From Williamsoniiplasma lucivorax ATCC 49196 (GTDB taxonomy: Bacteria; Bacillota_I; Bacilli_A; Mycoplasmatales; Mycoplasmataceae): a stretch of 64,000 nucleotides of DNA. Position 1 is the first letter of the stretch, and each line of letters starts with the position of its first letter. Below are positions 6,959 through 49,918 of the stretch, piece after piece. Both the position numbers and the translations under genes were made by a program. The notes beneath the pieces were generated by a model, which saw only the letters and a program-made list of their open reading frames with translations, did no database searches and was not told where the DNA came from. Location of the stretch: NCBI RefSeq assembly GCF_000518285.1, contig NZ_JADH01000003.1:1-64000 (forward strand). Reading direction: 5' to 3'.

Positions 6959-7873
6959 TTATTTTATATTTCTTACTTTTTTAATTAGGTCGTAAGCTGC
7001 ATTCACTTTCGCCATTTTCTCTTTAGCACCATGGGATTTGTTTTTATCTGGATGATATTCCATCGCTAATTTACGATATGTTGATTTTAATTCTTGATCA
7101 GAAATGTTCTCATCAACCCCTAATGTTTTATAAGCTTTTCCAAGCTCACTCACTTCTTCATTAAAATTGTAATATTGTTGGTTTTGTTGTTGTTCAAATG
7201 AAGAATAGAAAGAATTATTAGAACTAAATTGGTTAAATAGTTCTTGAATAATCAGATCCACATCATGTTCTAAATCGGCATAAAATTCTTGTTCTTTAAA
7301 ACGAATAAATTCATTAAAATTAATAAAGCGGTGGTCCTGAATAATTTTTTGTGGGTCGTCATTTAACACTTCACCAATGATAGCCGGAATAATATCTTTA
7401 ATGTAAATATTCACCATTTCGTGTTTGAAAGCATCTAAAAATAAATTGTAATATTGTAATAAAAAATTAATTGCTTGTTGTGATTGTGGTAAATGGGTTT
7501 GGTCAAAAGCAATCAATAACTTTTTTTCTTGTTCAGCCCAAAATTTCATTAAATGGTCTTCATGAGTTAATAAGCTTTGAATAATTGCGTTAACTTTGCC
7601 ACTGCTAACATTGTTTTTAATTAATCAAGTTTTGGTTTCATTGTAATTACTAAAAAAAGGAAAAACATCAAAAAGTTCTTCAATATTATAAAAACGAATT
7701 TGATGTGTTTTGCGTTGTTGTTGCAACCAAATCTTTTTGTTTTTCGCAAACACATCAAAAGTGTTTTCTTGTTTATTTTTACGATTGCCACTTGATCTTT
7801 TCGCTCAAAAACCACCACCCGAAAAAATGGAAATGATAATAAAGATAATTAAGATAATAAAAATTGTTTTCAT
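6959..7873 (-). CDS. Membrane-anchored J-domain protein 1
   Basis: This is a 304-residue protein with an N-terminal hydrophobic segment (residues about 2-20, FIILIIFIIISIF), a middle region of helices without recognised family, and a C-terminal J-domain (about residues 245-304: AYKTLGVDENISD, YRKLAMEYHPDKNK, NAAYDLIKKVRN) with an intact HPD tripeptide. J-domains stimulate the ATPase of DnaK/Hsp70, so this should recruit DnaK to the inner face of the membrane. The start ATG at 7873 was chosen because it restores the membrane segment; codons 23 and 83 are TGA. It is the first-listed of four tandem relatives (up to 11028). The sequence before its ATG (TGTAAAATCATTTTATG) is nearly the same as before the third copy, which supports both starts. 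No dnaK lies in the window. Confidence 0.88.
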
Positions 7874-7947
7874 AAAATGATTTTACATTAAAAGATGATA
7901 GAAAAAGCAATAATTAAAATAATACACTTGGTGTTCCAATAGACAAT

Positions 7948-8996
7948 TTAATCCATTTTTCTAAATTCTTTTATCACAACATAAGCATCGATAATTTCAG
8001 ACATTTTTAATAGTTCTTCTTTATTTTGAATTGTGTTAGGTTGATATTTTTCAATTAATTTAAGATATTCATTCTTAAATTCTTCATTAGTAGCTTTAGG
8101 GTCAATCCCAAGAATTAGATAAGATTTAGTTAATGAATGAACTAGTTCATTAACTTCACTTTCATTTTTATAATGTTTTGTAACTTGTCGGGGATTAACT
8201 CGTGGTTTTGTTGGTTTTGTTGGTTTTGTTGGTTTTGTTGGTTTTGTTGGTTTTGTTGGTTTTGTTGGTTTTGTTGGTTTTGTTGGTTTTGTTGGTTTTG
8301 TTGGTTTTGTAAGTGTGCTTCTCGTCATTGTCGTTTTTGTTCTCGATAATAGTAGCGTTGTTCCTTTTCATGTTCAGATAATTTATGTTTCCCATCTCAT
8401 TCGGAATTTAGGCATTCTTTAAAATTTTTAGTAGTTCACTCTTCTCTAATAGCATTCATTGGTCCACCAAGAGTTACTGCGAATGACATTAATGCAACAA
8501 TAGCAGAAACTAGAAACACCAAAAAGAATGATAAAATTGCTTCAACCATTCTAAAAATAGTTTTGGTAAAGTCATCTACAAACATATGATAAGCATGTGG
8601 CATAAACATCATGGTCCCAAAAAATAATATTGAACCACCTATCCCACCTAAACTTCATCAATGATGACAATAATTAAAAGTCGCAGTGGTGACGAGATAA
8701 GCAAATGAACAAGTAAAGAAACCAAATCCAAATCCTGCTAAATATCCAATAGGGATTGCTCTAAAATGTAATATCTCTCCTTGTACATTTATTCAATCAT
8801 AAATTGGTTTAAACAGTTCCTGATTTCATAACATTGGTTTAACCTTACTATTAATGACTCCTGAAAAAGTAGTTGCTAATAAAGGAACGGAAAAATAAAT
8901 AAAAAGAGCAAGTGCACCACCACAAATTGCCAATCTCAACATAACTTTTACAAAGTAAAAGAATCACCCTTGTTTTCTCATCTTATTTTTTTCCAT
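7948..8996 (-). pseudogene. Multi-TM protein with degenerate J-domain, frameshifted at a (TKP)12 repeat
   Basis: The ATG at 8996 opens a frame (284 codons to TAG 8144-8142) beginning MEKNKMRKQGWFFYF. It has about four membrane segments, then a charged coil (SEHEKEQRYYYREQKRQW) and an Asn/Gln repeat. A second frame, open from 8328 to TAA 7948, reads the same repeat as Thr-Lys-Pro and continues into a J-like domain (SYLILGIDPKATNEEF, YLKLIEKYQPN, IIDAYVVIKEF) in which HPD has become QPN. The two frames differ by two bases. The ATG at 8328 has no ribosome site, so I read this as one gene broken by an indel near the repeat. Alternatives are programmed frameshifting or a sequence error. Confidence 0.6.
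8204..8310. repeat. Twelve-copy 9-bp minisatellite (GGTTTTGTT)
   Basis: There are twelve near-perfect copies of GGTTTTGTT on the plus strand, the last lacking one base. On the minus strand they encode (Thr-Lys-Pro)n, (Asn-Gln-Gln)n or (Lys-Thr-Asn)n according to frame; none contains a stop. Copy-number changes keep the frame, so the repeat alters linker length rather than phase. Confidence 0.95.
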
Positions 8997-9151
8997 TGAA
9001 ATTAGTTTAATTCCTTTATTATCATAAAATGAGATAAAAAAAATAGCAAACTAATATTAGTTTTGACTCATCATTTTTAAATTTTATGATTTGATTAATC
9101 TTTACTGTATTAAAGCATATTCAAAATATTTTTCTCCAATTGAAGAAAATC

Positions 9152-10045
9152 CTATTTTATATTTCTTGCTTTTTTAATGAGGCTATAAGCACTATTAATT
9201 TTGACCATTTTTAATTTATTGGTTTCATTTGGTAATTTATCTGGATGATATTTTTTAGCGAGTTGACGATAAATTTTTTTTAAATCTTCATCACTAATAT
9301 TAGAGTCCACCCCAAGTACTTGATAAGCATCTTCTAATTCTGAATTTGGTAATCATAAATCTTCAAAATATTCTTCATCTGGCGATATTTCAGCTTCTTT
9401 AAAAAAATCTTATAAATTTTTCTGATATTCTATATCCATTGTGACAACAAATTTTTGCAAATTCTCTATAATAATTTTCTCTAGAATATCACTTTTTGAA
9501 AAATGATTTTTTTTAATTAAAACTTGGCCAAGAATTAAAGGTAGTGTTTCTTGAACAAAAAAGAGAATAGTATTTTGTGTCATTATGTCTAAAAAAAGCT
9601 TGTGATACTTTAAAGAAAGATTAGTTTCTGGAGTTGGTGTTACATTAATAGGTAAACCATCTTCAACTGGATACATTAACAAAATTGCACTAAAACCTTC
9701 TTCATACTCTTCTCATTTAGTTTGAAACTGCATTGCAGCATTTTCAATTATTTCTAAAAAGAAATAATATTCATCATACTGTAAAGCTTGTTTTTGTAAT
9801 CAAAATTGCACATTTTCAAAATCACTCAAAGGAAAGGAAAAATTAAATTGTTCTTGAATATTATGAATAGGGATTTGAATTGTATATTTTGCAGTCATTC
9901 TTCAATTCTTTTTATTTTCTTCATAAATAGTTGTCATAAATGGTGCTCTGTTTTTATTTTTGTATGAACGATATAAATAAACAACAGCCCCAACAATTAA
10001 ATTGGCTGCAACAATTCCCAGAATTTTAGCTCAAATATAACTCAT
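9152..10045 (-). pseudogene. Membrane-anchored J-domain protein 3, stopped before the J-domain
   Basis: From ATG 10045 the frame encodes one N-terminal membrane segment (AKILGIVAANLIVGAVVYLY) and a helical middle region related to copies 1 and 4 (YHKLFLDIMTQNTILFF, ETLPLILGQ). Codon 212 is TAA (9412-9410). The same frame then continues without any shift into a complete J-domain ([39 protein letters not shown]) ending at TAG 9152. In the intact fourth copy the aligned position is Ser, so one TCA-to-TAA change would explain it. As written, the protein would be membrane anchor plus middle region without the DnaK-stimulating part. Confidence 0.75.
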
Positions 10046-10140
10046 AAATTGATTTTACAAGAAAAATATAAAAACTAGTAAATTACTATTTTGGTTCTTG
10101 GATTGCAACTTTAAATAGAGGGTGCATTTTACTAAAAATA

Positions 10141-11028
10141 TTATTTTATATTTTTATTTTTTTTAATAAGGTTGTAAGCATTATTGATTTCTGTCATTTT
10201 GAATTCAGTATTTTTTGTGCCAGCTGCATCTGGATGATATATTTTTGATAATTGCAAATATACTTTTTTTAGTTCTTCATCATTAACATCAGAAGTCAAC
10301 CCAAGAATTCAATATGCTTTTTCTAAATCATTAATTAAGGAATCAGAATTATTATAATATGAATTTTTTGGTTCAGATTCGACTTCTGTCAAAAAATCTG
10401 ATATATGTTTTTTTAAGGATTCTTCCATTGAAGCAACAAAATTTTCAATAGTTTTGTCTAATAATTTGTCTATCTGATCATTATTTTCAAAAAAATTACT
10501 ATTTAAATTTAATGCTTGTTTGATAATGTAAGGAATTGTTTCAAAAATGAAAAACTTGATAGTGTTCTTTCTTAGTTCATCTAAAAATAAAATTTGATAT
10601 TTTGTGGAAATTGCATATTCGGGTTCGTCTGGATCTTCTTCTGGTTCTGGAGTAGAATCTAAAACTTCATTAAAAGTTTCTTCGAGTCTATTTCATTCAT
10701 TTTGAAAGATTGATTCGCTATAATTTATTGCTTCAATTACATCATCAACTCTATTGTCATTCAATCCCTTTTCTTCTAATCAATCTGTTATGTTATCATA
10801 ATCACTAAAAGATGAGTCAAAAATGAAATCTTCTTCAATGTTATATTTTGGAATTAAAATAGTCATTTCAGAATCATCAATTCATTCGAATTTATTTTCT
10901 TCAAAAATATTCACATCAAGAGCTTTTTCATCTCTTTTTCTTTTATAAAACTTAAACAAATAATAAATACCTAACCCAACCAAACAAGCTAATCCCGGAA
11001 TTAATCCTAACATTCAATAAAATTTCAT
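10141..11028 (-). CDS. Membrane-anchored J-domain protein 4
   Basis: This intact 295-residue protein starts at ATG 11028 (MKFYWMLGLIPGLACLVGLG): one N-terminal membrane segment, then a basic stop-transfer (FKFYKRKRDEK). An acidic middle region (PEPEEDPDEPE) leads to a helical part shared with copies 1 and 3 (YQILFLDELRKNTIKFF, ETIPYIIKQ). The C-terminal J-domain (KAYWILGLTSDVNDEEL, YLQLSKIYHPDAAG, INNAYNLIKK) has HPD intact. Five Trp codons are TGA. It starts just after the terminator of rpmA, so it probably has its own promoter. The J-domain predicts interaction with DnaK at the membrane; the substrate is unknown. Confidence 0.88.
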
Positions 11029-12167: not shown

Positions 12168-12191
12168 AAAAAAAGGCCTGAGCCTTTTTGC
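12168..12191 (-). terminator. Terminator of the double-glycine peptide gene
   Basis: The arms AAAAGGC and GCCTTTT are followed by a T run on the minus strand, right after the stop codon. Confidence 0.85.
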
Positions 12192-12544
12192 TAACAAAAA
12201 TCATGTAAATGATCGACCATTGGTAGATCTTCATGATGTGGAGTTACTTCCGGAATGTAGATTGCAGCTGGTGCTGGATGCACTACTGGCGCTGGATGCA
12301 CTGCTGGTGCTGGATGGTGCGCCGCTGGCTCTGGATGTTTAGTATTATCCCAAGTCATTGATGCATCCTTCGATTTAACCATGCCTTTATCTGCATCATT
12401 GTGTCCGAATGTAACAATTGAATTAATAACTGTCCCAACAAAGGAAACTACAGCATTGAAAATTGCAGCAATTCCACTAAGAAACGATCCTGAAATACGT
12501 CCCCCGTCAGTACTTTTTAATTCTTGTTGTGTAAGTTGTCTCAC
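12191..12544 (-). CDS. Small secreted-peptide precursor with double-glycine leader (bacteriocin-like)
   Basis: This 117-residue ORF starts best at GTG 12544, eight bases after AAGGGG; an in-frame GTG at 12553 overlaps the ribosome site. The leader MRQLTQQELKSTDGG fits the double-glycine rule for C39-peptidase ABC exporters: Leu at -12, Thr at -11, Glu-Leu at -8/-7, Gly-Gly at -2/-1. The following 30 residues are small, glycine-rich and amphipathic (ISGSFLSGIAAIFNAVVSFV), as in class II bacteriocins. The last 45 residues form an unusual His/Pro/Ala tail (HPAPAVHPAPVVHPAPAA and HHEDLPMVDHLHDF) that could bind metal. It has its own terminator. No exporter or immunity gene is recognisable nearby. 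The product could be a bacteriocin, a signal peptide or something else. Confidence 0.7.
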   Translation of the reverse strand: MRQLTQQELKSTDGGRISGSFLSGIAAIFNAVVSFVGTVINSIVTFGHNDADKGMVKSKDASMTWDNTKHPEPAAHHPAPAVHPAPVVHPAPAAIYIPEVTPHHEDLPMVDHLHDFC

Positions 12545-12678
12545 ATATATCACCCCTTATTAGATTAGAGATTCTTTTGTGATTTTTGCGATTTTTTGTA
12601 AATTTATTTTTTGATTAGTAAATTTTGTTTGTTTTTATACATCTAAAAGAGGTCAAAATATTTTAAGAAAAACATAAA

Positions 12679-34698: not shown

Positions 34699-35005
34699 TT
34701 CTTCTCCTTTTTTATTTTATTATCTCATTAACAGCAACTTACAAGAAAATTTTTCGAAAATTCCTTATTTTTTGGAAATTTTATTTTTAAATTAAATTTC
34801 AAAAAGTTTTTTTAAAAAGTGAAAGTGCTTTTTAATTTATCAAAAATCATTGCAATAAAAAATTCCACACCAAATAATGAAAATAGAGAAATTTTATTCA
34901 TTAACAATAATTCAAAGTGTTTTTACACTTAAAAAAACAAATATTTTTTGCAAATTTTTTCATTGCAAAAAGAACAATATTTTAAATAGAAAAATGAGGT
35001 ACAGA
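34699..35005. promoter_or_regulatory. Divergent promoter region of deoA and the PTS-mupG operon
   Basis: This is an AT-rich region without a convincing gene. Small inverted repeats are visible on the plus side: AAGTG/CACTT near 34915-34930, and TTTTGCAA/TTGCAAAA separated by nine bases near 34957-34980, just before the PTS gene. The second could be an operator. I could not settle the promoter hexamers. Confidence 0.35.
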
Positions 35006-37708
35006 GTGGAAAATATTAAAATTTATGCTCCTGTCGATGCTGATATTGATTTTATTGAAAAATGTTCTGATTTAGTTTTTTCAGAAAAAAATTTGGGCGA
35101 TGGTTTTTTAATTATTCCCAAAAAAAATAATTTTCAATTACCATTTGATTTTGCAAAAATAAAAATGATTTTTCCAACAAAGCATGCTATAGGCTTTGAA
35201 CTTAACAATGGTTTGAATGCCCTATTGCATTGTGGTTTAGAAACGGTTCATTTGAACGGAGAACCTTTCACATATTTTGTAGAAGAAGGTGATGAAGTTA
35301 GACGAGGAGACAAAATTTTTGATGTAAATCTAACTTTATTAAAAAAATTAAAAGTGTCTGCTGAAACACCTTTAATTTTTGAACTAAATCAAAATGAACA
35401 ATGTGTCATCAAAAATTTTAAACCTGGATTTTATAAACAAGGGGAATTAATTGCGGAGTTAAGCATCCAAAAAAATGAAGTTAACCCCCAAGATGAGATG
35501 TTGCAATTATTTGAAAGTGGTTCACAATTTGAAAATTTAGCTAAAAATATCGACAACTTAGTCGGGACAAAAACAAATTATAATGATGTTTATAATTGTA
35601 TGACTAGACTTCGTTTTGACATTATTAATCCCAATTTAGTTAACATAGATCAAATAAAAAAAGAGAAACTTGTTAAAAATGTGCGCTGAAATGGTCAGGA
35701 ATTACAAATTATTATTGGTGCAGAAGCTGCAAAGATTAAAGATGCAGTGATTGATTACAATAAAAAGCTGAATGATTTTGAATTAAGGGGCAACAAAAAT
35801 ATAAACAAAGATACGACGCTAGGTAAAAAATTTGTAGCAACTTTTATGGGAATTATGGTTCCTTTAATTCCGATTTTTATTGGAACAGGAATTATTCAAG
35901 CGATTATTGGTATTTTACAATTAACTGATGTAATGCCCACATTTGTCATTACTTCAAATCCAGAGACTATTAGTCAAATTGCCAATTTAAAAGGAATAGA
36001 CATTTGGTGGTTTTTATTAAATGCCGTTGGTAAAAGTAGTAGTTTATTTGTCGGAATTATTGTAGCTTATAGTGCTTCTAAATATTTTGATTTTAATCGT
36101 ATGTTAGGAGTTACTTTAGGGGTGATAATTTGTTCACCATTGTTATTTGTAAATGGTGGGTTATTTACAATTGGTGGTGATTGAACATTATTCAGAATTA
36201 CAACAATTAATATTCCAGATAATCCAAAATTGACATATTTCATTAATAATCTTTTCAACATCAGAATTACACCTGGAAATATCAAAATATTTGTCATTAT
36301 TTTTGCGATTTTATTTGGTCTGAAATTAGATAATTGATTAAAGAAAAGAATTACATCAATAATGGAGTTGATGTTTAAAGGCTTTGTTATTATCTTACTT
36401 GTTTCTATGGTTTCCTTAGGAATCATGACTCCAATTTGAAACTTTTTAGAAGCATTATTCGGATTATTATTTTACTTTATCGGCTTAATCCCCGGAATAG
36501 GCGTTGGGTTTTATGCTGGGATTGCTCAAATTGGAGTTATTTTTGCAATGCAAGCACCTTTGGGTATCATCACTTCCATTCAAACTATGGTGGATTTAGG
36601 ATTAGGATTAGGCGGGTATAGTGTTTATAGTCCTGGTGCATCCATATCTGTTTGAGCACAAGTGGGGGCATTAATTGGTGTAATTATAGTCACTAAAAAT
36701 GCCAATTTAAGAAGAACAGCTATTGGAATGATCCCAATTGGAATCCTTGGTGTCACAGAACCATTCTTATATGGAATTAATTTACCAAAAAAACGTCCAT
36801 TTCTAGCAGCGATTTCAGCTGCAGCTATCGCCGGAACTTTCGCATCATTGATTGGTGTTACTGGTAGAGTTGGTACTGGAATGGGCATTTTTGAAGCAGT
36901 GGGATTTTTCCAATGAACTGTTGCGGATCCAAATGGAGCTATCGGCTTGGCTAATGGTCAATTAACACCAATTGCAAATGGTTTATGGTATGTTGTATCA
37001 TGCCTAATAGCAATTGGTGGAGCAATCTTATTCACAATTTTTAGCTATAAAGAATATGTAAATGCTAAAAATAAAATTAACATGCTTTTAAAACAAGTTT
37101 TTACCTTTATTTCTTGAAATTCAAAAATGAATTCTACACCGATAACCAAAGAACAATTAAGGTTATTAAAAGAAGAATTGAATCAATTAAAAAAAGAGAT
37201 CACAAAAGAAGAACTACTTGAAATTAAAATTTTGGAAAAACAAATCATCAAACAAGTGAAGTTTAAGTCTAAATTATTATCCAATCAAGAAAAAGAAGCC
37301 AAAGAAAAAGAAAAAATAATTTCAAAAGGTCAAAAAGATTTAAGTAGAAATAAAGTAAAAAATGCTGAACAGTTGTTTGATAAATATAAAAAAATTGATT
37401 ATTCTGCATTAAATTTGGCATTAGAAAAAAATATTAAACACTCTGTTTCTCAAGATGATATTGCACGCATAGAAACTTTGATTTTGGAAAAAAATCAAGT
37501 GTTCTCTCAAAAAATTCAAAATATTTTGCAAAATTACAAAATAAATAATTTGGATTTAGATAACAACATCTACAACAGTTTGAACTCGATGTTAATTTCT
37601 TATGATTTTTTACAAGCAAAAGAAGAAACTGACATCAATAAAGAAAATAAGCATCTTAAAAAAGAGGTGCAAATAAAAAATAAAGCCATGAAATTAATGA
37701 ATACATAG
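35006..37708 (+). CDS. PTS permease, EIIA-EIIB-EIIC of the glucose/MurNAc superfamily, with coiled-coil tail
   Basis: This single 900-residue sugar phosphotransferase has an unusual order. EIIA comes first (IYAPVDADIDF, FPTKHAIGFEL, LLHCGLETVHLNG; phospho-His75), then EIIB with Cys198 (NDVYNCMTRLRF), then EIIC with about ten TM segments (KKFVATFMGIMVPLIPIFIG, LGVTEPFLYGINLP as sugar-site motif), and from about residue 708 a 190-residue Lys/Glu-rich coiled coil with no homology to PTS domains. The GTG at 35006 has GAGG six bases upstream; an ATG at 34994 is possible but lacks a ribosome site. mupG follows 33 bases later, so the likely cargo is a MurNAc-containing sugar or related amino sugar; this is inference. 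Confidence 0.88.
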
Positions 37709-38918: not shown

Positions 38919-39722
38919 TTAGTTATCTTTGGTATTGTTATTCAAAACAAAAATGTCATTTAAAATTTTGGTTTTACTAGTTCGAACTTGGGATAATGAC
39001 ATAATTTTAATTTTCTTGTCACTTAACCTAACTTCAACTTGAGGATCAGTTAGTGGGTAATTTGCAGTGTCGACTGCCAAAGTGATATTGGTAATATCTT
39101 TTAAATTTAAAGTAATAACTTGGTTATGGTCAAAAATGATCGGGGCATTCAAAGTTCGAAACTTATTAGTTGAAACAGGAAATAATTCAACCATTTCAAA
39201 AAGATTGGTATTAGGAAAAATAACTGAGCCGTGAGCTGATTTGGCAAATCCACTTGACCCAGATGGAGTAGCAAACACCATCCCAGTCCCGCGAAATGTC
39301 TCTAATAATTCATCATTAATAAAAACATCCATTTTCGTTGGGCGCGTATTATCAACAATTTTGACTTCATTAATTGAGTACCAAATACTTTGCTTGTTAG
39401 TTACTTTCAGCAAACTATATTCAACTCATTTTTGGTTTTTTTCAATGCCGCTGGCAAATAATTTTTTAAAATCATCCACCGTGTTATGACTTGTATAAAA
39501 ACCAATCCCACCAAACTTAATTGGGATAAAAATCACTTGACCAAGAATTTGTGAAAATTTATGGACAGCAGATAAAAAAGTTCCATCCCCACCAATTACA
39601 AAAACATAATTAGGATTGACATCATCTTGGATAAAATCAGGTTGGTCAGCTACAATAGCTAAGATTTCTCGTTCCATATCTTTTGATTCTTGATAACGAT
39701 TGGTTAAGATTGAATACTTCAT
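38919..39722 (-). CDS. nadK: NAD kinase
   Basis: NAD kinase (267 aa) makes NADP from NAD and ATP. The GGDGT motif (FVIGGDGTFLSAVHKF, residues 44-48), the NE box (YSINEVKIVD) and TPSGSSGFAKSAHG are visible. The start ATG 39722 (MKYSILTNRYQES) follows TTTGAGG. It is at the short end of the family range. It is divergent from trpS. Confidence 0.94.
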
Positions 39723-39809
39723 TTTTACCTCAAAAATACTATCTTTATTATACAAGAAAGATAATCTATTGTTTCAAGTTTTAGAAATAGGTTAAAATAT
39801 AAAAAAGAA

Positions 39810-41284: not shown

Positions 41285-43738
41285 TTAAGCAACAATTTGT
41301 TTGTTGTATTGATCAACGAATTGTTGACGATATTGTGTTTGCACAGCAAGACGTTTTTCACGTTTATTTTCTTTGATATCAGCTAATTGATCTAATTTTG
41401 ATCTTTCACCTTTAACACTTTGAATTGACGCTTTTGCTTCTTTGGTTGCGATGTTAATATTTGTGTTAGCTGTTTTGATATTTGCTTTATTATCTTTAAT
41501 TGAAGCTTTTTCAGCGATTTCAATTTCTTTCATAATTAATTTATTTTTATTAACCACATCTTTAAAGTCGTCATTAATTTTCACAATTTGTGCTTTTAGT
41601 ACTTCAATTTTGTCAGTTGATTTAATATCATTACCAGTTTCTTTTTTCGCAAGTTTATCAGCATGTTTGATATTGTTGATTTCTTTTTTAATTTCTTGAA
41701 TTCTGTCTTTTTTATCACTTCTTAATTGTGAAACATGAATGTTATGTGCTTCACGAACTGATTTTTCAGCTCCAGATTCAATAGTTACTCATAGTCCATA
41801 AGATGCGACAGTCACAATTACCCCAATAGCAACAGCTAAGAAGTAGTATGCGGTTTGTGCTCCATAAGGCACAGCTCCAAGAATTGCCACAATTGGTCCA
41901 CCATGACCAGCAGCATCAGTGATCATAAATGCTCCAGCAATTCCTCCGGCCACAGCTGATCCTAAAACGTTACATACAATCGCACGTCTTGGATCACGAA
42001 GTGCAAACGGAATTGCTCCTTCTGAAATTCCAATGGTTCCCATAATAATGGCAGCAATTCCTAATCCTCTTTCATCTTTGTTGTAGAAACGAGGGAAAAC
42101 TAAAGTTGAGATTCCCATTGCTAGTGGTGCTACTGGAATACCAGCAGCCATTGCTCCCATTGGTTGTTGAATACCAGCAGTAATTAAGGCTGTTGATGTG
42201 ACAAAGGCGATTTTATTAATCGGTCCACCCATATCAAATCCAGCCATGGCACCAAGCACAATTCCAAGCCCTAGTCCTAATCCAACTCCAATTGTTGAAC
42301 TTTCATAAGCATGTTTAATGGCATTTGAAAATTGGTGCATGATTCATCCAATTGGTCCACCAAGAACATAAATAAAGATTAGTGAAATACCAATTCCAGC
42401 AATTAACGGAATAAAAAAGATTGGCATCGCCGGTCTTAATGATTTAGGAACGTTTCAAGTGTTAATTCATCTTACAAAATATCCTACTAAAATTCCAGCA
42501 ATTAATGCTCCGATGAATCCCATTGGAGTTTCAATTTTGTCCATACCAGGTAAAACCATTAAGTTACCTGTGTTATTTCCGATAAATGCTCCGACCATTG
42601 CTGGGGCAATTGCAGCACGACCAGCAATTGAATTAGCAATGAATCCAGCAAGAATCGGTATCATTAATGCAAATGCTGCTCCACCAATTTTGTCTAGAAC
42701 AGCTAATGGACCTCATGGTGATAATCCAGGATTAGATGCAGGCCCCGATGTTGAGGCATCTGGTCCTCAAATTGCTTTCGCTAGACCAATTGAGAAGGCT
42801 AATGCAATCCCCCCCAAGACAATGATTGGAATCATGTATGAAATTCCAGCTAAAATATGTTGGATTAAGCCCATACGAGAATCAGCTTTGGCTTTTCCTC
42901 TTGAGTTATCAAATGATCCTTTACCATTTTGAATAATTGTTCCTTTAGCAATTGCTTCTTTCACAACAGCTTCAGGATTTTTAATGGCATCAGAAACTTT
43001 TGTTTGATAAAACTTTTTACCAACAAAACGTTCTTTATCAATGTTGGTGTCAGTCGCAAAAATCACAAGATCAGCTTGTTCAATTTCTTTGGTAGTTAAT
43101 TGGGTGCCAATTCCTTTTGAACCTTGGGTTTCCACACGAATGTTATATCCCATTTTAGGGACTTCTTTTAGAAGTCTTTCTTCTGCCATATAAGTGTGAG
43201 CAATCCCCACAACACATGCAGTAATTGCTACAATGTTTAATTGGTCTTGATTAGTGTTTGAAACTTCTTGTTTCTTTTCTTCTTTTTTAGTTTCAAACGC
43301 TTTTAAGATGGCAGTTTGAGTTTTAGTTGTTTTCAATGTTTTCTTGAAACCATCATCCATTAACTTGACAGCAATTTGGCTTAGAATGGCCAAATGTTCA
43401 TCACCATTTGGCCCTTCTGGTACTAATAATGCAATCGCAACTTTAGTTGGTTTTCCATCCATTGATTCTCATTCAATTGCGTTTTTAAAACGGAAGACAA
43501 GGACTGCTGCGTTTTTGATTTCCGGAATGCGCGCATGCGGAATGGCGAATCCATCTTCAAATCCAGTAGTACCTTGTTTTTCACGGTTTTCAAAACCCAA
43601 AATCAATGCTTTTTTATCTTTAGCTAAAATCAATTTTAAAGTTGCAGCTTGATCGGCCATAAATTTGAAGGCTGATTGCTGATCTTTAATTTCAACATCT
43701 AGAAAGATAAAATCTTTATTGAATATACTAAGATTCAT
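41285..43738 (-). CDS. Fructose-family PTS permease EIIABC with coiled-coil tail
   Basis: This 817-residue sugar importer-kinase is all in one chain: EIIA (DGFAIPHARIPEI, phospho-His68), EIIB (ITACVVGIAHTYMAEE, Cys175; family consensus CPTG reads CVVG), and EIIC with GWIMHQFSNAIKHAY, LGLGLGIVLGAMAGFDMGGPI and GTIGISEGAIPFALRDP. Fructose or mannitol-like sugars are likely. From about residue 650 to the end follows a charged, Lys/Asn/Ala-rich coiled coil (VREAHNIHVSQLRSDKKDR onward) absent from ordinary FruA. The PTS permease at 35006 has a similar appendage. Start ATG 43738. Confidence 0.9.
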
Positions 43739-43878: not shown

Positions 43879-44922
43879 TTATTTTTTCTTATTATTAATT
43901 TCATTGGCAGCTGAACGCATAAATGAAATTAGTTCTTTTTTAGTCATATCACGTAAATTAGCACCTTTTAATTTTTTATGACTTTCTGGTACTATTGAGC
44001 GCATTTTATTAGCATGTTTTTGCAATTCAGAACGTTGTTCAGAAATCACAGCAGATCCATCCAACTTAGCTCTTTCTTGGGTTGACATTTTTTTCTTGTC
44101 TTCCACTCTTTTAGCTAACATTTCAACAATCTTTTGTCTTTCTGCATCTTGAGCAGCATTTTTTAAGGCTTCTTCGTATTTTTGACGTTCAAGTTTTTCA
44201 GCTTCTTCTTGTTTTTTTAATTCAGCAGCATATTTAGCTTCCATCATCGCCAAGAAATCTTGGGCATCAGCATCATCTTGTGCTTTAGGCACTTCCATTG
44301 TTGGTTGTGGAGTTGGGATTGGTTTAGGTTTAACAACTTTTGGTTCAACTGGTTTAACAACTGGAATGGGGGTTGGTATTATTACTTTAGCTTTAGGTTC
44401 AACAATTGGTTCATGGTGTTGCACAATGATTGGTTCAACTGGTTTAACTGGTTGAGACTCAGTTTGATGAGGTTGAAATATCACTTGGATTGGTGTGGTG
44501 TTGTTCTTTTCTTCTTTTGGTTCAACTGGGGCAACTGGTTTTTTATTTTTTGGTGTTTTTGTTGAAAAGGCAAAGATCAAGAATGATAACAAGGCAAGTC
44601 CCATGGCAACTGTTGCAACTATTAAAATTAAATAATTAGCAAAGAAGTTGAAGAGGAATGTGGTTGGAGCAACTTTAGTCACATTATCAAATCAAAATTT
44701 GTCTGCGATGTGTCAATCTAGTCCCGAACCACTTCATTCATATTTCCATCCCTCAATTAGTGATCAACTACCATCTTTAAATGGAGAAAACATATTATTA
44801 ATGTTTCAACCCTCAATTGGTGAAGTGTGAATGTTCATTCATTTGATTGTAATTCCTAATAATAAAGCAATGATGCTAATTGTGAAAAACGTTCAAAAAA
44901 GTCTTCTAGCTTTTTTTCTCAT
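43879..44922 (-). CDS. Two-TM protein with Pro/Val linker and L20-tail-like domain
   Basis: This 347-residue protein starts at ATG 44922 (MRKKARRLFWTFFTISIIAL). TM1 lies at about 10-25, an exposed Trp-rich loop (SPIEGWNINNMFSPFKDG) follows, and TM2 is at about 95-118 (YLILIVATVAMGLALLSFLI). A Pro/Val/Lys linker (VVKPVEPKVVKPKPIPTP) then leads to a 130-residue helical domain: [63 protein letters not shown]. The same domain ends the neighbouring L20 protein. The tail should be cytosolic if the loop is outside. No known family. Confidence 0.8.
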
Positions 44923-44983
44923 ATTTGGTTCCTTTCTAAGAAAAATGTATTTTCTCTACACTAACTAAAGATATTTTACCAAA

Positions 44984-45010
44984 TAAAAAATAAAGCAATG
45001 CTTTATTTTT
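44984..45010 (-). terminator. Terminator of infC-rpmI-rplT
   Basis: AAATAAAGCATTGCTTTATTT is followed by T residues on the minus strand and overlaps the rplT stop. Confidence 0.8.
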
Positions 45011-45971
45011 TGGTTTTAATAATATCAGCAACTTGTCTCATGTATTTGATTAGTTCTTTTTTAGTCATATCACGCAAGTTTGCTTCTTTTAATGTTTTAT
45101 TTTTTGCTTCAACTAATGAACGCATTTTATTAGCATGTTTTTGCAATTCAGAACGTGGTTCAGAAATCGAATCAGATCCATCTAACTTAGCTCTTTCTTG
45201 AGTTGACATCTCAGCTTTTTTAGCTTTAGCAGCAGCACGAGCTTGAATTAATTTTTCTTTTTCTTCTTCTTTAGCTTCAGCTAAAGCTTTTTCGTGTGCT
45301 TCACGTTCTAAACGTTCTGCTTCTTCTTGTTTAGCTAATTCTGCAGCATATTTTGCTTCCATTTCAGCTAAATAATCATGTGTATCAACTTCATTTTCAT
45401 CTGCAACTTTTGCAACTTTTTTAGTTTCTGCTTTTGCTTTTTCAACTTTTGGTGTTTCTACTTTTTTAGCTTCAACTTTTGGTGTTTCTACTTTTTTAGT
45501 TTCAACTTTTGGTGCTTCAACTTTTGGTGTTTCAACTTTAACTGGTTTTGCTTCAATAATTACTTTTTTAACAACTGGTGCTTCAACTGGTTTAGCAGTT
45601 GATTTAGTAGTTGCTTGTCCTAAAGCAGATTGTGCTAAGTTAACAATTTTTGCAAATTCATCAGCATTGTAAATTGCTAATTCTGATAACATTTTACGGT
45701 TAATATCAATGTTTGCTTTTTTCAATCCATTCATAAATCTTGAATATGATAAACCAAATGGACGGACAGCTGCATTAATACGAGTGATTCATAATTGACG
45801 GAAATCACGTTTCTTTTGTTTACGTCCAATGTAGGCGTAAGCCATTGAGCGAACTACTTGTTCATGTGCTTTTTTGTATGATGATTTTTTAGTTCCATAA
45901 TACCCTTTAGCACGTTTAATTCAACGTTTTCTTCTTGCTCTGGTAACTTTACCAAATTTAATTCTTGCCAT
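45003..45971 (-). CDS. rplT: 50S ribosomal protein L20 with a 200-residue C-terminal extension
   Basis: The first 120 residues are ordinary L20: [60 protein letters not shown]20 binds 23S rRNA early in assembly and, in Firmicutes, represses its own operon. Here the chain continues to 322 residues. Residues about 125-190 are a degenerate Val-Glu-Thr-Pro-Lys repeat ([18 protein letters not shown]); the last 130 form a helical domain shared with the downstream two-TM protein, including [24 protein letters not shown] and [19 protein letters not shown] Trp codons occur in the L20 core. It is third in infC-rpmI-rplT. Confidence 0.93.
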
Positions 45972-48406: not shown

Positions 48407-49918
48407 TTAAACTTTTGTTTGTTTTTGAGCTTTAATTGGTTGTGGAATTCCAATTGGTTCTTGCGCAACTAAGTTTGGATCAACTTGATGTTCACGACCT
48501 GGAGTTTGAATATCTAGTTTTTTAATTAAACTATAGAAGACAACATAATAAACTCCACCAGCAACAGCTGTTAAGGCTAATGTTCATAATGGGTTTGAAG
48601 TGACTCCTAAAACTCCACTCTTACTTGCAGCAAATCCTCAAGATTGTGCAAATGAAACAATGTAATCAATTAATCCAGCCGAGAATCCAAATCCGACTTG
48701 AATTCCCATTCCTGTTGAAGTAGCCACAAAAATTCCAGTTAATAAGGCATGGATGACTAATAATAATGGTGAGACAAAAACAAATGAGAATTCAATTGGT
48801 TCAGTAATTCCAGAAATTAGAGAAACTAAAGCAACACCACCGAAGAATCCACCCATTTTAGCGCGATTTTCCTTTTTAGCTGCAAAAATCATTGCAATCG
48901 CAATTGCTGGAATTCCTCCCATCATAATTGGGAAGAATCCTCCTTGGAAGAATCCTGATCCTTGAATACCTTTAGTGAAGGCTGAAATATCTCCATTAGC
49001 TCAAATAGTTTCTGTACCGATTGCTCCTGTAATTGGATCAACAACATGTCCACCAATTGGTAATTGGAATCAGAAGAATGTATTTAAAATTTGGTGTAAC
49101 CCAAATGGTAATAAGAAACGGTTTAAGACAGCATAAACTGCAGTTCCCGGAACTGTGATAGCTGGATTATCTGGGTTAGCAACTGCTTGACCAAACATCA
49201 TTAAAACATATTGAATTCAAGGTCATAAAACAGCAAAAGCAAAAGCAACTGGAATTGCCACTAAAATCCCTACCATTGGGACAAATCTTCTTCCTGAGAA
49301 GAATGATAATGCTTGCGGTAATTGAATATGTGACAATCTATTATATAAATAGGCAGAGAAACATCCGGCAGTGACCCCTCCCAAGACCCCGACATTGAGT
49401 ACATATTTTCCACCAACGACAATATCTTGGCTACCTTTAGCAAATTCTTTAACATAGAATAGTTGTGAAAATGCATGACCGTCTTTGTCTTGGAATGTTA
49501 ACACATTTTTATACATCATTTCTGGTAATCCGTGTTCAGCATTCATCACAGCAATGATGAAATAAAATACGGCAGCAACTAACGTAACTTCCCCTCGATG
49601 ATCTTTAGAGAGACCAAAAGCGAGACCTAGAGCAAATAATAATGGTAAATTATCAAAGGCAACACCACCCGGTTTTTGAATAATGAATGAAATTCAGTAA
49701 CCAACTTGATTGGTAATATTACCATCGGCATCAGTGGTAAAAGTAATTCCTAAATTACCAAACCGATTTAAAATGGCTGCAAATGGTAAGACTGCAATCG
49801 GGAATTGCAAGGCTTTACCAAGTTCTTGTAAAAGTAATAAAAAGTTACCTTTTTTAGGACTTGATTTAACACTACCAAAAGCATCATTTTCTTTTTTCTT
49901 TTTAAGTGATAAGAACAT
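48407..49918 (-). CDS. PTS EIIC, glucose/GlcNAc family (EIIC only)
   Basis: This 503-residue integral membrane sugar permease has a cytosolic start (KGNFLLLLQELGKALQFP), then IAVLPFAAILNRFGNLG, GLAFGLSKDHRGEV, GFFSGRRFVP-type loop (SFFSGRRFVPMV), FGLHQILNTFFWFQLPIGG and the sugar-site ISGITEPIEFSFVF. It lacks EIIA and EIIB domains, so it depends on the lone EIIB (46971) and EIIA (55227). About 10 TM segments. Start ATG 49918. Confidence 0.92.

Follow-up and report, generated by a model that had tools for sequence, protein, structure and literature searches.

Extensions of ribosomal proteins (r-proteins), defined as more than 20 residues past the usual terminus relative to Escherichia coli, are described as widespread among bacteria and for the most part without explanation (Xue et al., 2022; PMC9534751). 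The same source reports such extensions on r-proteins of Mycoplasma pneumoniae, S6 included, and calls their functions largely elusive. The L20 protein of Williamsoniiplasma lucivorax PIPN-2 (ATCC 49196), a strain given as of firefly gut origin (PMC10884336), falls under this definition with about 205 extra residues, as gauged on the 116-134 aa frames of its relatives rather than on E. coli L20. The extension ends in a module that recurs, in this species and its relatives, all of them wall-less bacteria, on other r-proteins, on membrane proteins and on proteins with an HU domain.

Shared C-terminal modules and contacts between ribosomes and membranes are each familiar. Dockerin-type modules are found at the C-terminus of many unrelated proteins of one genome and are read by a common partner, and the C-terminal tails of YidC/Oxa1 bind ribosomes at membranes. 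A search of the literature, with most subscription journals and preprints outside its reach, returned no description of one domain common to r-proteins and membrane proteins, and we rate its occurrence across r-proteins, membrane proteins and HU proteins as a categorically new arrangement.

L20 and the adjacent membrane protein share a C-terminal module

The window, that is, the whole stretch of 64,000 nucleotides analyzed here, belongs to a genome (G000) of 1,103,092 bases in 31 contigs. Its L20 gene encodes 322 aa, as originally predicted, in a frame that is open only when TGA is read as Trp (W17 and W61, both inside the L20 domain). The sole part of the protein that Pfam recognizes is the L20 domain (PF00453; 145.5 bits, curated cut-off 30.8), with a match that ends at residue 109. 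Genes read by eye as IF3 and L35 lie upstream, and the next gene downstream encodes P0002, a protein with two predicted transmembrane (TM) segments; a relative of P0002 adjoins L20 in the related genome G003 too. BLASTP aligned residues 183-322 of L20 with residues 208-346 of P0002 (84 identities over 141 columns, 60%; E 1e-45), a likeness that is far above chance. Three strings quoted in the original prediction as common to the two proteins are present letter for letter in both, and both carry the Pro/Val/Lys linker that it had described. A promoter and terminator scan added little. The features of the locus are:

45003-45971, minus strand: gene for ribosomal protein L20, extended by 205 residues at the C-terminus, 322 aa, code 4 (PF00453 on residues 3-109)
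45621-45971, minus strand: L20 domain proper, residues 1-117 (Pfam, dN/dS)
45384-45620, minus strand: L20 linker, Pro/Val/Lys/Glu, residues 118-196, fast evolving (dN 0.30, dS 0.33 against the G003 orthologue)
45207-45383, minus strand: helical arm of the module on L20, starting near the motif LAEMEAKY (AF2, dN/dS, motif search)
45006-45206, minus strand: module core on L20, R-x3-DGS-x2-I ... TKKE, up to the C-terminus (sequence and profile matches, AF2)
43879-44922, minus strand: two-TM protein P0002 with the same module, 347 aa, code 4 (BLASTP against L20)
44845-44901, minus strand: first TM segment of P0002, predicted (hydropathy)
44560-44673, minus strand: second hydrophobic segment of P0002, predicted, K/R-rich downstream, the module being predicted cytosolic (hydropathy, K/R counts)
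44266-44559, minus strand: Pro/Val/Lys linker of P0002 (sequence)
44086-44265, minus strand: helical arm of the module on P0002 (sequence and motif comparison)
43882-44085, minus strand: module core on P0002 (alignment and profile)
48407-49918, minus strand: PTS EIIC without the module, which a 77% identical relative in G003 has (presence/absence between species)

The module consists of a helical core of ~66 residues; many copies also have, ahead of the core, a flexible linker and a helical arm bearing a ...MExKY-like motif. Ten core positions are invariant in an alignment of 32 rows, and seven are so in one of 16 rows to which the most divergent copies belong. Outside the family of TM-module-HU proteins described below, the R-x3-DGS motif, where found, begins 53-76 residues (mostly 57-65) before the C-terminus. 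A short helix motif ending in KY stands 25-128 residues upstream in 29 of 53 carriers.

Elsewhere in the window, a short protein (12191-12553, minus strand) combines a double-glycine-like leader (QLTQQELKSTDGG) with a hydrophobic stretch and His/Pro/Ala repeats, a pattern that looks bacteriocin-like. Tandem proteins with N-terminal hydrophobic segments, some of them ending in J-like domains (by eye), occupy positions 6959-11028 (minus strand), with KPT and NQQ low-complexity repeats between them.

Distribution of the module

Searching the W. lucivorax genome with the L20 tail gave six matches: L20, P0002, two further two-TM proteins, S6 and a PTS EIIC, the latter two identified by Pfam. A wider profile added one more copy, degenerate, which terminates an amino-acid permease. 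The module, first seen as a feature of L20 and its neighbor, is therefore common to that pair and not confined to it, with six places in the genome by sequence and a degenerate seventh by profile. A profile of 32 module cores (A1), run over 60 genomes of the family, matched in 19, of which we kept 17; G035 (11 places) and G068 (4) were left out as matching, repeatedly, only at profile positions 40-62. By genus code, the carriers are 4 of 4 genomes in g1, 1 of 1 in g2, 7 of 7 in g4, 4 of 4 in g9 and 1 of 2 in g10, and none was counted in the remaining seven genera among the 60 genomes. The original prediction had counted a lack of tail conservation in relatives among what would refute it, and these 17 genomes do conserve the tail. 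It had also proposed comparing L20 length in related genomes: the open frame is 279-390 aa in seven genomes of the family and 116-134 aa in the other 53, and the gene is single-copy in all 60.

A class-wide sample gave matches in 12 of 395 genomes, the single one outside the family (G404) being weak and partial (E 8e-4, positions 25-60) and left out. Nine wider-profile hits at E 0.02-0.1 were also left out (two each in G002, G011 and G031 and one each in G003, G018 and the negative control G009); among them, G018:600778 is the N-terminus of an ordinary HU and G031:322715 falls inside a gene resembling window positions 38919-39755. The N-terminus of an ordinary HU (L245:1048-1323, minus strand), MTKKELIEEI, resembles the last helix of the module, probably by chance, though the module also occurs on HU chains. 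Two decayed copies with internal stops (G027:652657 and G003:466872) were not counted as carriers. We rejected a phage origin: none of 93 pattern matches in viral contigs was a relative, 50,697 phage records contained no match to the L20 core, and PHROG gave isolated weak hits only (best E 0.0013, one member each).

In a tree of IF3, L35 and L20 from 44 genomes (16 of the 17 carriers, G060 being absent), g1, g2, g4 and g9 split from all others with 99% ultrafast bootstrap; the module-free g3 is drawn nearest to them in a weak placement (36%). G019 lies outside this main carrier clade, beside the module-free G012 (100%). In a tree of the cores (50 rows, few columns, many forks open), both G019 copies group with those of g2 and g4 (90/83, in a bootstrap that had not settled). 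Such a grouping of the copies, while the genome lies elsewhere, suggests a possible horizontal transfer. The module loci of this genome are L127 and L151.

Carrier proteins and a putative docking role

The module ends or accompanies 53 listed frames and one more from the wider profile, named by clustering and by Pfam of representatives (by homology or by eye for clusters without a scanned member). A tagged r-protein is present in all 17 module genomes. The 22 r-protein frames are 11 S6, seven L20, three S16 and one S5, and S6 and S16 are single-copy in the 17 carrier genomes and three untagged relatives (20 genomes). In five genomes (G000, G001, G003, G004 and G019) a protein of each subunit, small and large, is tagged. 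Membrane carriers (two-TM proteins, PTS EIIC, FtsH and permeases) occur in 12 of the 17 genomes, so the display of one module on ribosome and membrane alike, noted first at a single locus, recurs in these 12; in six of them an HU domain accompanies the membrane carriers. The other frames comprise seven PTS EIIC (one a fragment), three permeases (one from the wider profile), one FtsH (G001), five P0002-like two-TM proteins, a mixed set of six two-TM and HU proteins, two other membrane proteins and a TM-module-HU family of eight frames, whose G001 member seemingly lacks the HU part (by eye). Three of the ten HU carriers were scanned against PF00216, all scoring above the cut-off; the other seven were assigned by homology or by eye. 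No soluble enzyme was recognized among the carriers found. In G011, G018, G019, G022 and G031, which have tagged r-proteins only, the wider profile (E <= 0.1) gave no convincing match to a membrane or HU copy, S6 being the sole carrier detected in G022.

The S16 and PTS EIIC copies of G029 (draft assembly) are joined only across an apparent frameshift. At the loci concerned (L135/L209 and L154/L210) the module is out of frame with S16 and PTS EIIC, which reflects sequencing error or real decay. Two PTS proteins of the window (41285-43738, minus strand; 34877-37708, plus strand) have long charged C-terminal tails that were unmatched in the module searches, and lineage-specific tails may be common here.

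Lys and Arg residues are more numerous after the last TM segment than before it in 27 of 29 membrane carriers (two frames cut at locus ends), which by the positive-inside rule would place the module of these proteins in the cytosol. By our own tally the carriers fall into 11-14 families, all of them r-protein, membrane or HU. Under a rough random-carrier null for these few families (membrane share taken from 25 of 50 window genes, r-protein share assumed at 6%), the probability of one other soluble family or fewer is about 0.004-0.016, and that of four r-protein families about 0.004-0.009.

A domain whose carriers are r-proteins, membrane proteins and HU points to location rather than catalysis, as a docking tag would. 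We give about even credence to the proposal that the tail is a docking (association) module specific to this lineage, through which ribosomes would meet proteins of the membrane and the nucleoid. All module copies in one cell would bind one another or one shared partner, and ribosomes would be concentrated with membrane proteins and, via the HU fusions, with the chromosome. The tagged r-protein would be interchangeable, since only display on the ribosome surface would count; in ribosome-only species, the partner would have to be a different protein, a second ribosome or nucleic acid. Were the tails to tether directly to one another, every genome would be expected to have a membrane copy; the five of 17 without a convincing one argue against an obligatory membrane tether and leave, as alternatives, a third partner common to the tails, nucleic acid or contact between ribosomes. 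Ribosome-membrane tethering or a shared binding partner had been put forward as a possibility from L20 and P0002. The dual attachment is real and tethering itself we infer, but a tether between L20 and its neighbor is too narrow because L20 is one carrier of several, relatives use S6 or S16, and five genomes have tagged r-proteins with no convincing membrane copy.

Fold of the core and a possible affinity for nucleic acids

AF2, run with three sequences, modelled the arm as helical and the core as helical and compact, with a pLDDT of 83.5 over the module and 89.7 over the core; two of the five core models scored ~89 and three 69-71. The core helices (residues 4-11, 20-33, 39-42 and 51-67) follow a helix-loop-helix order. 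Foldseek searches of the PDB with the whole module and with the core gave no match at E <= 0.001, and the best VIA-align Z scores, 4.0 on 8 chains and 4.7 on the one chain aligned in a second run, are uninformative. The best match of a profile search of PDB sequences (E 0.013) was to lysine-rich histone doublets and was judged a chance hit; no r-protein was among the matches listed (60 of 68) in the A1 search of these sequences. Over the 32 cores, four Pfam families reached E <= 0.01 in any member (Rho_N, Flg_hook, DUF1104 and SAM_LFY), none of them above the curated cut-off where cut-offs are given, and six NCBIfam families reached E <= 0.1 (E values only; best 0.0039, one or two members each). 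The nearest family, and the most frequent weak hit, is Rho_N (PF07498), found in 6 of 32 members with a best score of 23.5 bits against a cut-off of 24.9 (E 5.4e-5). Among ten cores scanned, six matched Rho_N, five of them from residue 22-26 to residue 53 or beyond. The core may prove to be a remote Rho_N-like domain.

A divergent Rho_N-like helix-extended-loop-helix could make the tail a nucleic-acid-binding one, by which the ribosomes and membrane proteins that carry it would be attached to mRNA or the nucleoid. The helical order of the AF2 core is as expected for such a tail, the HU domains on the same chains would fit it, and ribosome-only genomes would be accounted for. However, the Rho_N score stays under the curated cut-off, there is no significant PDB fold match, and the net charge of the core (-4 to +19, and -3 to +5 in the TM-module-HU proteins) speaks against nucleic-acid binding; proteins that already bear HU would, moreover, hardly need a tail of this kind. 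We consider this explanation unlikely but worth keeping in view.

An association of ribosomes with one another, in which the tail would link subunits or neighboring ribosomes (polysome packing, hibernation) and the membrane copies would be secondary, agrees with the tagged r-protein of every carrier genome and with the five genomes in which both subunits are tagged. It is nonetheless quite improbable, for it leaves the tail on PTS EIIC, FtsH, permeases and HU unexplained and 12 of the 17 genomes have a single tagged r-protein.

Constraint, copying and host switching

Docking by a common domain, the reading that we favor, can be set against the substitution rates of the L20 regions, for which the rows C7TM and PTS were ignored as out of frame. 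Between G000 and G003, dN and dS were 0.041 and 0.292 in the L20 domain, 0.143 and 0.907 in the arm and 0.142 and 0.393 in the core (linker values are listed above). Between G000 and G001 they were 0.124 and 0.584 (L20 domain), 0.368 and 0.858 (linker), 0.468 and 0.544 (arm) and 0.165 and 0.526 (core). With dN/dS ratios of about 0.36 against G003 and 0.31 against G001, the core is constrained in both comparisons; the arm (0.16 and 0.86) is so in one.

Some tails also look copied from gene to gene. In the core tree the L20 modules required 7 changes for 7 rows, which is no improvement on shuffled labels, and the TM-module-HU copies form one clade. Over all 50 rows both hosts and genera are clustered, with 17 changes against a shuffled mean of 34 for hosts (S6, PTS and TM-module-HU above all) and 10 changes against a mean of 24 for genera; L20 is therefore the clearest case of host switching. 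For the 30 r-protein and two-TM copies, genus labels required 5 changes (least 4) and host labels 10 (least 4). At the DNA level, the L20 and S5 tails of G019 are 94.3% identical over 766 bp and end at the stop codons, and two different PTS genes of G003 share 351 bp at 95.7%. Near-identical tails of this kind indicate that some copies are exchanged or renewed within genomes, a process in which new fusion and gene conversion look alike.

These copied tails are what would be expected of a neutral spread, in which a recombining 3' gene segment fuses to genes without conferring a function, an explanation close to the duplication by-product entertained in the original prediction. The decayed copies of G027 and G003 would fit it as well, as would the degenerate permease copies and the PTS gene that is tagged in G003 (locus L162) and untagged in the window. 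Yet neutral spread has little likelihood in our judgment: the core evolves at a dN/dS of 0.31-0.36 with invariant residues across carriers, some r-protein is tagged in 17 of 17 genomes, and the carriers are non-random. Mere local duplication is insufficient because the module tags four r-proteins, several kinds of membrane proteins and HU-like proteins and has a conserved, constrained core. As the whole explanation, local tandem duplication was rejected, the copies in the W. lucivorax genome lying on five contigs (C3, C7, C8, C9 and C12) in unrelated proteins. There is very little to recommend a proteostasis tag, recognized by FtsH, Lon or a chaperone and controlling the turnover of abundant proteins, since FtsH, though it has a copy of the module in G001, is tagged in that one genome of 17 only, r-proteins would be odd substrates and the carriers include no recognized soluble enzyme.

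Implications and comparison with known systems

To our knowledge, the positioning of ribosomes with respect to membrane and nucleoid is a largely open question for very small cells. One domain marks r-proteins, membrane proteins and DNA-binding proteins alike, and the genomes thereby suggest which partners are meant to come together. Extending the docking proposal, we tentatively envisage, with more doubt than belief, an intracellular wiring system of the Entomoplasma/Mesoplasma/Williamsoniiplasma group, in which one adaptor domain, carried by one r-protein or another, by transporters and small membrane proteins and by HU proteins, would hold translation, membrane and nucleoid in one assembly and would move among carriers under the rule that at least one r-protein always keeps the tag. 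Should the module indeed act as a dock, it would also be a natural tag with which to recruit proteins to the ribosomes of minimal cells. Mesoplasma florum L1 is described as near-minimal, and genetic tools for it exist (PMC7745072).

The extensions of M. pneumoniae resemble those described here in being carried by bacterial r-proteins, S6 among them, and differ in that here one domain is common to several r-proteins and to membrane and HU proteins. Rho_N shares with the module a similar helix-loop-helix order and a near-threshold score; the score is, however, below the curated cut-off, and the module adds a conserved R-x3-DGS-x2-I segment before the Rho_N-like part. The likeness to dockerin-type modules is by analogy only, the carriers here being ribosomal, membrane and DNA-binding proteins. 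YidC/Oxa1 likewise brings the ribosome to a membrane protein, but there the tail is on the insertase, whereas here the ribosome and unrelated membrane proteins both bear the module.
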